Shown here one piece after another: positions 11,897-60,755 of a DNA stretch of 64,000 bases. This DNA comes from Halorussus pelagicus. GTDB lineage: Archaea; Halobacteriota; Halobacteria; Halobacteriales; Haladaptataceae. The position numbers and the translations under genes are program-made. Position 1 is the first letter of the stretch; every line of letters starts with the position of its first letter. The stretch is from the NCBI RefSeq assembly GCF_004087835.1, contig NZ_CP035119.1, positions 372,001-436,000 of the forward strand, in the 5' to 3' direction. Under the pieces are notes generated by a model. That model saw only the letters and a list, made by a program, of their open reading frames with translations, ran no database searches and had not been told where the DNA came from.

Positions 11897-12118
11897 GGCG
11901 GTCGGTAAGAATGGAATAGTGATGAAAGAGACGATTCCATCGTGACGGAATCTCGGCGAGCGTGATTTTGGGCAACGCGCCGGTACCCGCCGGAGACCGA
12001 TTGTTCTGCCTGAGTGTACGTTCGACAGACCTATCCCTAATTTAATACTTACTATAATTAAAATTGTTTCTTTTCATTAGAAAATTTTATGTATTTCTGC
12101 CATATACGTGTAAATGCA

Positions 12119-12454
12119 ATGGCAGATAACTCCCACCCAGAAAAAAGTCGACGTAGCATTCTAAAAGCGTCCGGCGCTATCGTAGGAGGCGGAGCCCTCA
12201 TGGGTGCCGCCACGAGTTCTGCATCGGCGAGCGACCTGTACGTGGGACAAGAAGTATACCTGAACGCGGACGGGAGAGACATTCCCGGCTGGGAGAGTTG
12301 TGACTTAAAGAACTACGAGTTCTACAACCGCAAGACGAGTGGCACCATCGTCGATGGTTGCTCTCGGGACGGTTACTGGAAAGTAGACCTCGATGGCTAT
12401 CCCACGGCGTGGTTCAGCGACAACTTCCTGTCAGAGAACAACGGCGGCCCATAG
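12119..12454 (+). CDS. Small Tat-exported protein of unknown function
   Basis: A 111-residue protein with a Tat signal (KSRRSILKASG followed by a hydrophobic h-region and an ASA-like cleavage site near residue 37). The ATG after the AT-rich leader is chosen because it places the RR motif at a normal distance. The mature part is about 75 residues with two cysteines and many aromatic residues (YVGQEVYLNAD, GYWKVDLDGYPTAWF), which suggests a small extracellular beta domain, perhaps SH3-like. The upstream 90 bases are strongly AT-rich and a likely terminator follows. No family is recognised. Confidence 0.7.
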   Translation: MADNSHPEKSRRSILKASGAIVGGGALMGAATSSASASDLYVGQEVYLNADGRDIPGWESCDLKNYEFYNRKTSGTIVDGCSRDGYWKVDLDGYPTAWFSDNFLSENNGGP

Positions 12455-44711: not shown

Positions 44712-44852
44712 AGTCGTACCAAGAGTCGCTACCCGGAAGGGACCTGCGGAAGGGGCAGGGATGGTCGGTTTAAACATAAATAAGTTAACCAGACTCAGCG
44801 CATATAATTCGTAGAAAACACGAGGTCAGAGATGTTTGAACGATTATTATTC

Positions 44853-45104
44853 TTAAATGGATGTAATTAGATACAACAGTACAGAGTAGACGGCAGTATA
44901 TCGAACAGCATGTGAGATGCTCTGGCTAACACTTTTACCTATTATGAGTACATCTACAAGAAAAATTCCGAGACACATCGTAATCATTATACAGACAAAC
45001 GAAACCAAACTACTGCGAAACAGATCATCGAGTAACAGACCGGCAGATACGACTATTAAAAGAATAAAAAACAGCTTCAGACGTTCACTTGTGTAACTTT
45101 TCAT
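44853..45104 (-). CDS. Small membrane protein downstream of the halocin-like precursor
   Basis: An 83-residue protein with about three hydrophobic segments (LFFILLIVVSAGLLLDDLF, FVCIMITMCLGIFLVDVLII, YTAVYSVLLYLITSI) and a basic start, MKSYTSERLK. It starts 14 bases behind the stop of the halocin C8-like precursor on the same strand, so the two probably form one operon. Its DNA is much more AT-rich than the surroundings. Position suggests an immunity or export helper for the peptide, but no family is recognised. The role is inference. Confidence 0.7.
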   Translation of the reverse strand: MKSYTSERLKLFFILLIVVSAGLLLDDLFRSSLVSFVCIMITMCLGIFLVDVLIIGKSVSQSISHAVRYTAVYSVLLYLITSI

Positions 45105-45118
45105 TTATTAGATTTTAT

Positions 45119-45889
45119 TCACAGTGGTGGAGTGTTACAGTAACCAAAGTCGTAACACACTGCTCCGGCCGCTCGTCTACAATCTTTAGTCAAGTCAATA
45201 TTTTTGCATACGTATTCAGCGACGACGCTACAGGTTGCACCAGCAATGGCGTTTACCAAACCTACCCCAAGGCAAATCGCGGTCGTACTTAATCCACATC
45301 CATATTTGCAAACGTATTTTACGATTTCTTTACAACCGGTACACTCGCCAATACCCTGAATCGAAACACTTTCTCCTTTGATGACAGAAGGTTCACCAGA
45401 TTGTGTGATTTCCTTTGTACGAACTTGACCGTTCTCAATGGTAGCAAAGTTGACTATCAGTTTACCATCTCGTTCCCAGAGAAGTTGACCCTTCGAATCA
45501 AAGAGTTCGCCGTTTGAGAAGGAGAAACCAATCCTCGCTTCTTTCGGGTCTGACGTTTTCTCTGCTGATTCAAAACCGAAGGTCACTAACCTTCCGGACA
45601 AACCTTGCTCATCTTTGGAGATTACCCGATACGCTTCAACATCCGCTTTGTTTACAGTGAAACTGTATTGTTCCTCAAAATGATTACTCAATTGTTCGAA
45701 CTCGGGTTGATTCTGTGCTTTATCTACAATACTTTTCTGTTGTGCTCTTTTTAGTTCAATAAGTTCGCTTTTTTCACCACGGACTGAATCGGATCTAATT
45801 CCTAGCCCAGCAGTACTGAGTCCTATCGTTCCGAGAAGGGATCGACGACTTATTCTGGAATCCTTATCGCTGTTTTTGTCTTTTGACAT
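45119..45889 (-). CDS. Halocin C8-like precursor protein (Tat-exported, ten-cysteine C-terminus)
   Basis: A 256-residue precursor. Residues 1 to about 35 form a Tat signal (ISRRSLLGTIGLSTAGLG). A hydrophilic middle, residues about 40-178, corresponds to the immunity/propeptide part. The C-terminal 78 residues contain ten cysteines at 183, 186, 194, 198, 206, 220, 228, 237, 245 and 251, with spacings 2-7-3-7-13-7-8-7-5. From memory, mature halocin C8 from Halorubrum has spacings 2-7-3-7-13-7-8-8-5 in a 76-residue peptide cut from a 283-residue Tat precursor, so the match is close. The gene is AT-rich against GC-rich flanks, which suggests transfer. The peptide likely kills other archaea. Confidence 0.88.
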   Translation of the reverse strand: MSKDKNSDKDSRISRRSLLGTIGLSTAGLGIRSDSVRGEKSELIELKRAQQKSIVDKAQNQPEFEQLSNHFEEQYSFTVNKADVEAYRVISKDEQGLSGRLVTFGFESAEKTSDPKEARIGFSFSNGELFDSKGQLLWERDGKLIVNFATIENGQVRTKEITQSGEPSVIKGESVSIQGIGECTGCKEIVKYVCKYGCGLSTTAICLGVGLVNAIAGATCSVVAEYVCKNIDLTKDCRRAAGAVCYDFGYCNTPPL

Positions 45890-45946
45890 CGACTTAACAT
45901 TCGAACCCCTTGATTAAAAAATGTGTTTTTTTTTTCTAACTTTATT

Positions 45947-46558
45947 TTAGTATTTTTTATTTTGGGTAAGCTGGTCAACCGCGCCGACGTTCTCCTCGCT
46001 CTCCATCGTCGGCGGATTGGGTTCGATGGTGGCGTAGCGGACGACCTCGCGGCCGAGTTCTCGGACGCGCTCGGCCACGTCCTCGTCGGTGAACGTGCCG
46101 TCCCGAATTGCCGAGTGCGACCGAGGCACCGCGGCCTGATGGGGCAGGACCCACGCGTCGAGCGCCCGACAGACCGACCGGAGGTGTTCGAGCGCCGTGA
46201 TGGGAAAGCCCCCGCCCGACACCGCGAGCAGGCCGACCGTCTTGTGTTCGAACTCCTCGAACCCGCAGTAGTCGAGCGCGGTCTTCAGCACCGAGGAGTA
46301 CGACCCGTGGTACATCGGCGACCCCAACAGGACGGCGTCGGCCTCGCGGACGGCGCGCTTGAGGTCCGCGGCGTCGCCCGCGTCCGCGTCGTCGGTGTCG
46401 GGGTCGTACGCGGGCAGGTCGTACTCGCGCAGATCGAGCAGGTCGGCCGCGCCGCCCTCGCTCTCGACGGTCTCCAAAGCAACTTCCAGCGCGACCCGCG
46501 TGACGCTCTCGTCTCGCAGACTTCCACAGAGCGCGACGACGTGAGGTGTGTCCGACAT
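45947..46558 (-). CDS. NADPH-dependent FMN reductase family protein
   Basis: A 203-residue flavodoxin-like protein starting MSDTPHVVALCGSLRDESVTR. It has the FMN-phosphate loop GSLRDESVTRVAL, then VLLGSPMYHGSYSSVLKTALDYCG and LLAVSGGGFPITALEHLR. It reduces free or bound FMN, quinones or metals with NADPH. Its 3' end runs into the AT-rich sequence upstream of the halocin-like gene. The downstream C-terminus (EENVGAVDQLTQNKKY) is less conserved. Confidence 0.9.
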   Translation of the reverse strand: MSDTPHVVALCGSLRDESVTRVALEVALETVESEGGAADLLDLREYDLPAYDPDTDDADAGDAADLKRAVREADAVLLGSPMYHGSYSSVLKTALDYCGFEEFEHKTVGLLAVSGGGFPITALEHLRSVCRALDAWVLPHQAAVPRSHSAIRDGTFTDEDVAERVRELGREVVRYATIEPNPPTMESEENVGAVDQLTQNKKY

Positions 46559-52721: not shown

Positions 52722-53108
52722 TCACTCGCCGCGCTCGTTCGATTTCGAGGTACCGTTTCGGAGCGAGTCGAGCGTCGTCCAAACGACCGCGGCCGCGGTC
52801 GCCAGTCCGACGACCGCCAACAGTGAGTACAGCGGCGACGCGAGCGGGAACAGGACAAATATCGAAATCAGCGACAGCGCAAGGGCCAACAGCGCCGCGG
52901 TGGCGATTTCGACCGCCTCCGGCCGGGTCCGGAGGACCGAGGGATAGCCGAACTCCTCGGCGACGGTCGAGAGTCCGAGGAGGTTCAACGTGACGTACCA
53001 GAGGACGAGGACGACCGGCGGGAGCGACGTGTCGTAGACGACCGGAAGGTGGCCCAAGACCGCGAAGGACGCGCCCCAGAGGAGTTGGTCAATTCGTTGT
53101 ATTCTCAT
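52722..53108 (-). CDS. Membrane protein downstream of the second Cys-rich precursor
   Basis: A 128-residue protein starting MRIQRIDQLLWGASFAVLGH, with about four hydrophobic segments (VLVLWYVTLNLLGL, IATAALLALALSLISIFVLF, SLLAVVGLATAAAVVW) and a hydrophilic tail (NGTSKSNERGE). It begins 82 bases behind the ten-cysteine precursor gene on the same strand. That order repeats the arrangement at 44853-45889. It is GC-rich and may be a native gene. An immunity role is only a positional guess. Confidence 0.65.
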   Translation of the reverse strand: MRIQRIDQLLWGASFAVLGHLPVVYDTSLPPVVLVLWYVTLNLLGLSTVAEEFGYPSVLRTRPEAVEIATAALLALALSLISIFVLFPLASPLYSLLAVVGLATAAAVVWTTLDSLRNGTSKSNERGE

Positions 53109-53190: not shown

Positions 53191-54198
53191 TCAGACGCCT
53201 TCAAAGCAATCCATCGCGTTCGCGCAACTCACTCCGCTGAGAAGGTGCGAACAAACGCCGAAGACGCAGAGAACACAGATGACAGCACCGACACCAGTCG
53301 GGCTGCCGACACAGGCAGGTGAACATTTGAGACATCCAGCGATACTACCAGAGAATGAGGCGACGCATCCGACAGCTTTGACAGCACAATTATCCGTGAG
53401 CGACCCTAAACCCGCAAACCCGAGGCTTTTGATTATCTTTTTCGCAACGACCTTAGCCGCGCCAGATATGAATTCAGGTTCAAACGTCGCCGACTCTGGG
53501 GAGACTGAAGCAGCAGTCGTCTCCTCGGGGATGATGTTGTATCGGATAAATTCAGTTGTCGGAACGTCAGTCGAGTCGGTCGTCGAATCGGCCCCGACCC
53601 TCTCAACGTCGTACTCGTCCGGAGAAATTCCGACTGACTCGGGGTCAAGAACATCTACGTGGAGTCCTTCGATGTCCGACCGAGTGTAGACGAGTATGCT
53701 CTCGTGGTCGTCCAGCGAGGCCGCAGAGAGAGCGGCCTCTCGTTCTTCGTCCGTCGCAGTTCGGAGAAAGGTTGCTTCGTCCTCGGCTCCCAACAACCAC
53801 GCGTCAACACCGGTTGGAATATCGTCGTACTTTTTGTTCGGAGCCTTCTTTTGTGCATCGCCATCGAAAGTGAAGGCAGCGCTTATTTCGTCGTCCACGC
53901 TCCCGACCAGAAGCGTCCCGTACCCGAGGTCAATCTGAACTGTTTTAAGAGTGAAAGATTCGCCGTCAAGTTCAGTAGTCTCTGCCGTCCCACGGCGCGG
54001 GATTCGATTGAGGCCGAGTTCTTCCAGAATAGACTGCACCTCGGCGGTTCGCTCGAACTCTTTTAGCTCGCTTCCGTTCGCTCCTCGCTTCGCTATCGCG
54101 TTACCGCTAAGCCCACTGATACCGACCCCAGCACCCGTAGCGCAACTCCGGAGAACGTTTCGTCTGCTGATTCCATCTGATTTATTTTCTTTTGACAT
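53191..54198 (-). CDS. Tat-exported precursor with a C-terminal ten-cysteine domain (halocin-like)
   Basis: A 335-residue protein starting MSKENKSDGISRRNVLRSCA, chosen because this ATG places the Tat RR motif correctly and the opening matches that of the halocin C8-like precursor (MSKDKNSD). A long acidic middle (residues about 40-265) ends in a Lys-rich EFISGAAKVVAKKIIK stretch. The last 69 residues hold ten cysteines at 271, 278, 289, 292, 296, 308, 311, 316, 325 and 331 (spacings 6-10-2-3-11-2-4-8-5), with Gly-rich hydrophobic segments between. The spacing differs from halocin C8. This may be a new class of Cys-rich archaeal peptide precursor. The DNA and leader are AT-rich. Confidence 0.75.
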   Translation of the reverse strand: MSKENKSDGISRRNVLRSCATGAGVGISGLSGNAIAKRGANGSELKEFERTAEVQSILEELGLNRIPRRGTAETTELDGESFTLKTVQIDLGYGTLLVGSVDDEISAAFTFDGDAQKKAPNKKYDDIPTGVDAWLLGAEDEATFLRTATDEEREAALSAASLDDHESILVYTRSDIEGLHVDVLDPESVGISPDEYDVERVGADSTTDSTDVPTTEFIRYNIIPEETTAASVSPESATFEPEFISGAAKVVAKKIIKSLGFAGLGSLTDNCAVKAVGCVASFSGSIAGCLKCSPACVGSPTGVGAVICVLCVFGVCSHLLSGVSCANAMDCFEGV

Positions 54199-54369
54199 TG
54201 CATGATATACGATATACTCCACATATAACACCATTTCCATTTGTGCAAGTACATTATTATTTATATATTAAATTTATTAAAATAGTATATACTTATCTAG
54301 ATTCATTTATAGACTGCTCCTAAGCCCATTATTATTTTTATGTTAAATGACTCCAAATAAAACCCGCCA
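54199..54369. promoter_or_regulatory. AT-rich leader upstream of the Cys-rich precursor gene
   Basis: These 171 bases are almost entirely A+T, with several TATA-like stretches such as TATATACTTAT near 54288 and TATATATT near 54262. Reading right to left they form the promoter region of the precursor gene. The composition contrasts sharply with the mutY gene on the other side. Confidence 0.5.
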
Positions 54370-59501: not shown

Positions 59502-59894
59502 TTACTGGGTTACTTCGTCGGCTTTGTAGAAGACGTCAACGCCGCTGTCCCACGTCTTCTCGTCGAAACGGTCGAAGCCGTACACTCGGTACTGAGCGTA
59601 GTCGTCCGGGGTGGAGTTGATTTCGCCGTCGACTTCGCCCGAGACGATGAAGACGGTGTCGCCTCCATCGTCGTACTGGTCGAGGGTGAATTCGAGGCCA
59701 GGCTCTTGGACTTGAACGTCGTCGGCGTAGATCTCGATCTGGTAGCTACCTTTACCCTGAATGCGAAGGTAGCGGTAATCGAGGGCGGCGGCGGAACCGC
59801 TGGTCGCTGCGAGACCACCGGCAGCGACGGTCGCGGCTGCTGCACCTTTCTTTAGGACGTTACGTCGGCCCACGTCATTGCTTTCATCCGACAT
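59502..59894 (-). CDS. Tat-exported beta-rich protein, family copy 1
   Basis: A 130-residue protein starting MSDESNDVGRRNVLKKGAAA. The Tat motif is GRRNVLK, and a cleavage site falls near SAAA-LDY at about residue 38. The mature ~92 residues are beta-rich (YLRIQGKGSYQIEIYADDVQV, VFIVSGEVDGEIN, DDYAQYRVYGFDRFD), ending DVFYKADEVTQ. It is a close paralogue of 60351-60755 and the decayed copy between them. Upstream sequence is also shared, with the conserved AACCGATTAATTTTAGT promoter block. Function is unknown. Confidence 0.85.
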   Translation of the reverse strand: MSDESNDVGRRNVLKKGAAAATVAAGGLAATSGSAAALDYRYLRIQGKGSYQIEIYADDVQVQEPGLEFTLDQYDDGGDTVFIVSGEVDGEINSTPDDYAQYRVYGFDRFDEKTWDSGVDVFYKADEVTQ

Positions 59895-60350: not shown

Positions 60351-60755
60351 TTAGGACTGGCTCAGTTCGTCGGTCTTCCAGTAAACATCGACGCCGCTCT
60401 CCCAGGTACGGTCGTCGAACTTCTGGTGACCGTAGATCTTGAACTGAGCGTAGTCGTTGGGCGTCGAGTTGATCTCGCCGTAGACCTCTCCTGAGAGGAT
60501 GTAGAACGAGTTGCCCGAACTGTCGGTGGCCTGCTCAACGTCGAGCGTACCATCGACACCGTTGTCGGTCACTTCGACGTTGTCTGCGTACACTTCGATC
60601 TGGAAGCTACCCTGACCCTGAACGAGGAGGTAGCGCCAGTCGAGTGCGGCGGCAGATCCACTAGTGGCGGCGAGACCGCCGGCAGCGACGGTCGCGGCCG
60701 CTCCACCTTTCTTCAGGACGTTACGTCGGCTCACGTTGTTGCTTTCGTCAGACAT
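60351..60755 (-). CDS. Tat-exported beta-rich protein, family copy 2
   Basis: A 134-residue protein starting MSDESNNVSRRNVLKKGGAA, with the Tat motif SRRNVLK and a likely cleavage after SGSAAA. The mature part has YLLVQGQGSFQIEVYADNVEV, SFYILSGEVYGEINS and DYAQFKIYGHQKFDD, ending YWKTDELSQS. It is paralogous to the protein at 59502-59894 throughout, and the upstream AACCGATTAATTTTAGT block is the same. Tandem duplication in an AT-rich segment is likely. Function is unknown. Confidence 0.85.
   Translation of the reverse strand: MSDESNNVSRRNVLKKGGAAATVAAGGLAATSGSAAALDWRYLLVQGQGSFQIEVYADNVEVTDNGVDGTLDVEQATDSSGNSFYILSGEVYGEINSTPNDYAQFKIYGHQKFDDRTWESGVDVYWKTDELSQS

Follow-up and report, generated by a model that had tools for sequence, protein, structure and literature searches.

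The window, the whole stretch of 64,000 nucleotides analysed here from Halorussus pelagicus, contains at 45119-45889 (-) an ORF encoding a halocin C8-like precursor of 256 aa, with an ORF for an 83-aa membrane protein (44853-45104 (-)) 14 nt downstream. Both had been described in the initial annotation, and the ORF listing together with the sequence confirms the length, position, Tat character and cysteine spacing of the precursor, as well as the 14-base gap to an 83-residue membrane protein. The precursor opens with a Tat signal region (residues 1-38, 45776..45889 (-)) carrying the motif SRRSLLG at residues 14-20, with R15-R16 at 45842-45847 (-). This motif was identified by eye; an RR near the start is also found in nearly all of the intact C8 family members that we collected. 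At the other end, ten cysteines occupy residues 183, 186, 194, 198, 206, 220, 228, 237, 245 and 251, giving a spacing of 2-7-3-7-13-7-8-7-5, and a five-residue tail extends beyond the last of them. The spacing matches that of the family, whose other members for the most part vary in the later gaps only. It equals that of halocin C8 in all gaps except the one between cysteines 8 and 9, which is 7 in the window and 8 in halocin C8. The halocin C8 spacing given in the initial annotation, 2-7-3-7-13-7-8-8-5 in 76 residues, agrees with the 76-residue peptide encoded at locus L006 of another haloarchaeon, which we take to be halocin C8. The predicted released peptide would comprise approximately residues 177-256 (45122..45361 (-); ~8 kDa, ten cysteines), its start being set solely by reference to halocin C8.

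The C8 domain proper (residues 183-251, 45137-45343 (-)) covers the full length of NCBIfam model TIGR04449, the halocin C8-like domain (positions 1-69 of 69), with 40.2 bits and E 5e-10 against a curated cut-off of 24 bits. Because the cysteine pattern by itself could mislead, we also scored shuffles of the domain in which the cysteines were held fixed. Against a model of the other members, with the window sequence left out, the domain reached 50.5 bits, a score attained by none of the 2000 shuffles (mean 8.6 bits, maximum 31.3). Moreover, direct alignment of the window peptide with the halocin C8 peptide gave 33% identity over 58 aa (E 2e-6). The similarity therefore extends beyond the cysteines, and by its sequence the C-terminal domain is a divergent member of the halocin C8-like subfamily, as first annotated. 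The AlphaFold model of the full-length precursor was poor (pLDDT 50) and was left out of the fold search. The model of the C8 domain has four helices (mean pLDDT 75), and neither the PDB nor viral structures gave a significant match to it; the best three in the PDB were saposins C, A and D (E 2.5-4.3, TM 0.37-0.47, non-significant), a group having membrane-active members.

Between the signal and the peptide lies a middle region (residues 40-178, 45356..45772 (-)), the positional equivalent of the HalI part of halocin C8. In halocin C8 a single precursor yields both toxin and immunity protein (PMC11509114; PMC8628083), and immunity had likewise been assigned to this part of the window precursor. 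If the locus worked in this textbook mode, with toxin and N-terminal immunity in one precursor, then the 83-aa protein would be an accessory or a hitchhiker. The overall architecture is alike, and profile comparison offers some faint similarity of HalI type: group against group, the window group matched a group of C-terminally extended precursors with a probability of 82% (E 1e-5) and the halC8 group with E 3e-4. This similarity spans the initial ~60 residues of the middle region and includes a predicted helix-loop-helix (residues 48-75, 45665-45748 (-); low-confidence AlphaFold model), after which beta strands are predicted. However, the middle region has no match to Pfam Hac8_like_N (PF22862), the domain of halocin C8 and its close relatives (e.g. 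141 bits in L007), and the window precursor scores 8.7 bits against a HalI model built in this analysis, compared with 74-171 bits for true HalI types. The earlier assignment of immunity to this part is thus weakly supported. The middle region and HalI are probably related, but very distantly.

The 83-aa protein has three hydrophobic segments and reached the cut-off of no model in Pfam, NCBIfam or PADLOC. Counterparts of similar size occupy the same position at L042 (83 aa) and L086 (90 aa); their sequences resemble it weakly. When a profile of these two members was run against 75 small membrane ORFs, the 83-aa protein ranked fourth (E 1.4e-4), about equal to one other small membrane ORF that is itself near a C8-domain gene. 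A profile search for homologues of the 83-aa protein across 391 genomes returned the window's own protein as the sole significant match, the others being borderline stretches that lie mostly in longer membrane proteins. Given its position, size and weak sequence similarity, we consider it likely that the 83-aa protein is homologous to the partners in L042 and L086.

Both genes lie within an inserted cassette of 1198 bp (44776..45973, without strand), whose limits follow from the empty sites of sister species. The flanking genes, in the window an NADPH-dependent FMN reductase (PF03358; 45947..46639 (-)) and a zinc-type oxidoreductase (PF16884, PF00107; 43692..44777 (-)), are directly adjacent in ten such species, all belonging to the same genus. 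The closest empty site, in the sister species at L100, reads GTTGAC-TGAG-GTTTAAACC and the window reads GTTGAC-1198 bp-GTTTAAACC, i.e. 4 bp stand where the window has its insert. Through the insertion the upstream flavin reductase lost its stop codon, and it now reads eight codons into the insert and ends in the foreign sequence QLTQNKKY. The GC content of the precursor gene is 0.43, against mostly 0.67-0.70 in the flanks. The AT-rich island of the initial annotation is this insertion, in line with its reading as a sign of transfer. The unit first reported (44853-45946) contains both ORFs, with the true insertion slightly larger. At the insert ends we found no clear target-site duplication, no long terminal inverted repeat and no mobile-element ends. 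An origin as a transposon or integron was rejected in the absence of clear terminal repeats or duplication, and a viral, phage or plasmid origin was rejected as relatives were absent from the IMG/VR, phage and plasmid collections in the searches used.

The precursor gene and the 83-aa gene were the only genes recognised in the insert, the rest of which is non-coding DNA; the two therefore travel together. That the cassette has a second gene speaks against a single gene for both production and immunity. The membrane gene is part of an insertion that is minimal at 1.2 kb, and counterparts of it occur throughout the family; together with the low HalI score, this makes the textbook mode unlikely at this locus.

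A small membrane neighbour is not peculiar to the window locus but recurs commonly in the family. The C8-domain genes of every locus were grouped at 70% domain identity into 38 clusters, and up to 150 nt after each C8 gene, on either strand, we searched for ATG-started ORFs of 45-150 aa that have at least two membrane segments (predicted from hydropathy only) and are not covered by a longer ORF. Such a neighbour was present in 22/38 clusters compared with 5/123 control genes of the same DNA (Fisher p = 1.4e-12) and was not seen under the same criterion in 16/38. In an earlier count we admitted ORFs on the same strand only, required one membrane segment or more and accepted ATG, GTG and TTG as starts; this yielded 19/38 clusters and 10/96 control genes. 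The halocin C8 loci themselves (L006/L007/L009/L035) have no qualifying small membrane neighbour. A 4-TM ORF convergent to halC8 was discounted, being contained within a longer ORF; its sequence may represent the end of an AI-2E/PerM-type transporter, which it resembles. The membrane protein had been called extra to the textbook locus, and this is correct with respect to halocin C8 but not for the family, in which such neighbours are common. The neighbour occurs in 4/8 clusters with a strong HalI domain and in 18/30 of the remainder; the simple explanation that the membrane protein stands in for a HalI domain that was lost is therefore unsupported, and we rejected it as a general rule.

The partners themselves form several families. 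Those of L019, L054 and L072 are mutually homologous (E 1e-15 to 1e-19), and further families comprise L023/L045, a 4-TM group (L004/L011/L021/L044) and L050/L056. The L072 partner is convergent, showing that partner homology across related precursors persists when the gene order flips. It is conceivable that these proteins aid export, processing or anchoring of the precursor or peptide and have no part in immunity. The co-directional orientation of the 83-aa gene and its closeness to the precursor would suit such a helper, as would a four-gene type found in Halostella, Halopiger, Natrinema and Haladaptatus (L125-L129). Here two multi-TM proteins follow the precursor, one small (with four predicted segments, or two in the case of Haladaptatus) and one large, of ~530 aa (9-11 predicted segments, without a Pfam match), and a regulator of the HVO_A0261/FilR1 type, identified in L125, lies upstream of the precursor. 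The 4-TM protein precedes the 11-TM protein in this arrangement, the latter being a possible transporter. Against a helper role, the partners are tiny and very diverse whereas the Tat signal is common to all, and the convergent L072 partner speaks against a need for co-transcription. Moreover, we know of no dedicated partner that Tat export requires. We therefore regard a role in export, processing or anchoring as quite improbable.

A number of less regular arrangements were also seen. At L053 (G325) the N-terminal part of a C8-domain gene looks unrelated, and the membrane ORF, of 73 aa, lies ~360 nt upstream on the same strand. In L098, L091, L079, L150 and L147, C8-type domains or similar cysteine-rich tails end long proteins (open frames of ~670-720 aa) with a HalI-like motif inside; L098 and L091 also have a convergent membrane ORF of 71-86 aa. 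Lastly, the 154-aa open frame L151 (G147) has a HalI-type domain but lacks a C8 domain; it lies ~14 kb from a C8-like gene and is possibly a stand-alone immunity gene.

The TIGR04449-type domain was found in 43 of the 391 sampled haloarchaeal genomes, representing 26/86 genera. Its distribution is patchy within the taxonomic family of the window's genome (12/28 genomes), and that genome has three copies. A contig pattern search with a set of more closely related precursors recovered six named loci, all of them haloarchaeal. To our knowledge, the tested members are only halocin C8 and very close relatives. The window peptide, at its 33% identity to that tested type and with a near-neutral computed pI of 7.4 compared with an acidic 4.1 in halocin C8, could lack antimicrobial function and instead be secreted for a structural or signalling purpose, or be an inactive relic. 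However, the ORF is intact, all ten cysteines are retained, the two genes were gained together and the distribution is patchy, features typical of competition toxins. A peptide without antimicrobial function is thus very improbable.

The window contains a second Tat precursor with a hydrophobic C-terminus of ten cysteines, also in AT-rich DNA (53191-54240 (-)). The cysteines fall within the last 65 residues and their spacing, 6-10-2-3-11-2-4-8-5, is unlike C8. It matches no model of Pfam, NCBIfam or PADLOC above the cut-off. Related proteins, whose cysteine-rich tails vary, are spread over many genera (37/341 sampled genomes at E 1e-6, some of these being matches to the signal region only). 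A 128-aa membrane ORF (52722-53108 (-)) begins 82 nt after the second precursor, and an adjacent small membrane ORF was found in 12/37 distinct members of this family, which is above control (p = 1e-5). These sequences constitute a candidate new halocin-like family and point to C8 as a single branch of a broader archaeal stock of secreted cysteine-rich peptides. On contig C17 of G113, four members of the second family lie within ~7 kb (~302.9-310.0 kb), a possible toxin array. Elsewhere in the window, two similar Tat proteins of ~130 aa (59502-59894 (-) and 60351-60755 (-)) lie close together in a stretch of low GC and match no Pfam model over cut-off, and a 121-aa Tat protein (12089-12454 (+)) lies in a low-GC pocket and has no family over cut-off.

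Taken together, these data lead us to favour, with some reserve, the reading that a self-contained cassette for toxin and immunity, of the halocin C8 kind, was inserted at this locus, and that its 83-aa membrane protein protects the producer. The ORFs, the C8-type character of the C-terminal domain, the insertion event and the recurrence of small membrane proteins beside family genes are established by the sequence data; the mechanism that follows is inferred. The twin-arginine signal suggests that the precursor would be exported folded via the Tat pathway. If halocin C8 is a guide, an extracellular protease would cut near residue 177 to give an 8-kDa helical peptide with five disulfides, which would damage the envelope of related haloarchaea. 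The middle region may be a pro-part for folding or masking, perhaps with some neutralising role left. By analogy with bacteriocins in general, the 83-aa protein, presumably co-transcribed and situated in the producer membrane, would guard against the peptide; it is probably a dedicated immunity protein, and we propose it as a better candidate for self-protection than the middle region of the precursor.

More broadly, we hypothesise, at a little short of even odds, that the one-gene halocin C8 is the exception, and that Tat-exported cysteine-rich toxins of haloarchaea are often moved as minimal cassettes in which a fast-evolving small membrane protein sets the specificity of immunity. If this is true, the toxin stock is large and comprises C8-like peptides and at least one family that lacks a database model, and the N-terminal part of the precursor would not hold immunity specificity. 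Few archaeal peptide toxins exist, and immunity has apparently been described for one case only, with precursor and immunity in one gene. A family-wide membrane neighbour therefore offers a direct and cheap way to ask by what means other producers are protected, and further archaeal toxins could be sought through it. Moreover, the 1.2-kb insertion and the relatives with an empty site provide a ready-made system, in which the same neighbourhood exists with and without the cassette. In the literature covered, which includes few subscription journals, we found nothing on the family model names or the membrane partners.

Amongst known systems, the immunity proteins of bacterial bacteriocins are small, hydrophobic and polytopic and are encoded beside the bacteriocin gene. 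The 83-aa protein is likewise small, polytopic and adjacent, though it falls under no family model of the three collections searched. The other two copies in the window's genome, L039 and L040, share with the window precursor the TIGR04449 domain and the Tat signal; both differ in having a clear HalI-type domain and a C-terminal extension of 16-17 residues, and as to membrane neighbours L040 has none adjacent whereas that of L039 is convergent and 77 aa long. Closer in layout are L042, from the same genus, and L086, from the same taxonomic family, in each of which a divergent C8 precursor is followed by its own small membrane protein. Their peptides are of other sequence and end without the five-residue tail, and the Tat start of the L042 precursor is in a different frame. 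With halocin C8 and its precursor ProC8 the window locus shares a Tat precursor of 250-290 aa and a helical, hydrophobic C-terminal peptide of ten cysteines; it departs from them in its peptide sequence and tail, in its middle region and in its membrane neighbour, which is absent at halC8. Under halocin C8, sensitive rod-shaped cells reportedly become spheres and then lyse (PMC6759562). Lastly, HapP/HFX_0892 of Haloferax mediterranei differs, by its description, in that its active part lies at the N-terminus and a partner strain supplies the halolysin, whilst it resembles the model proposed here as a haloarchaeal precursor activated by an extracellular protease (PMC12893001).
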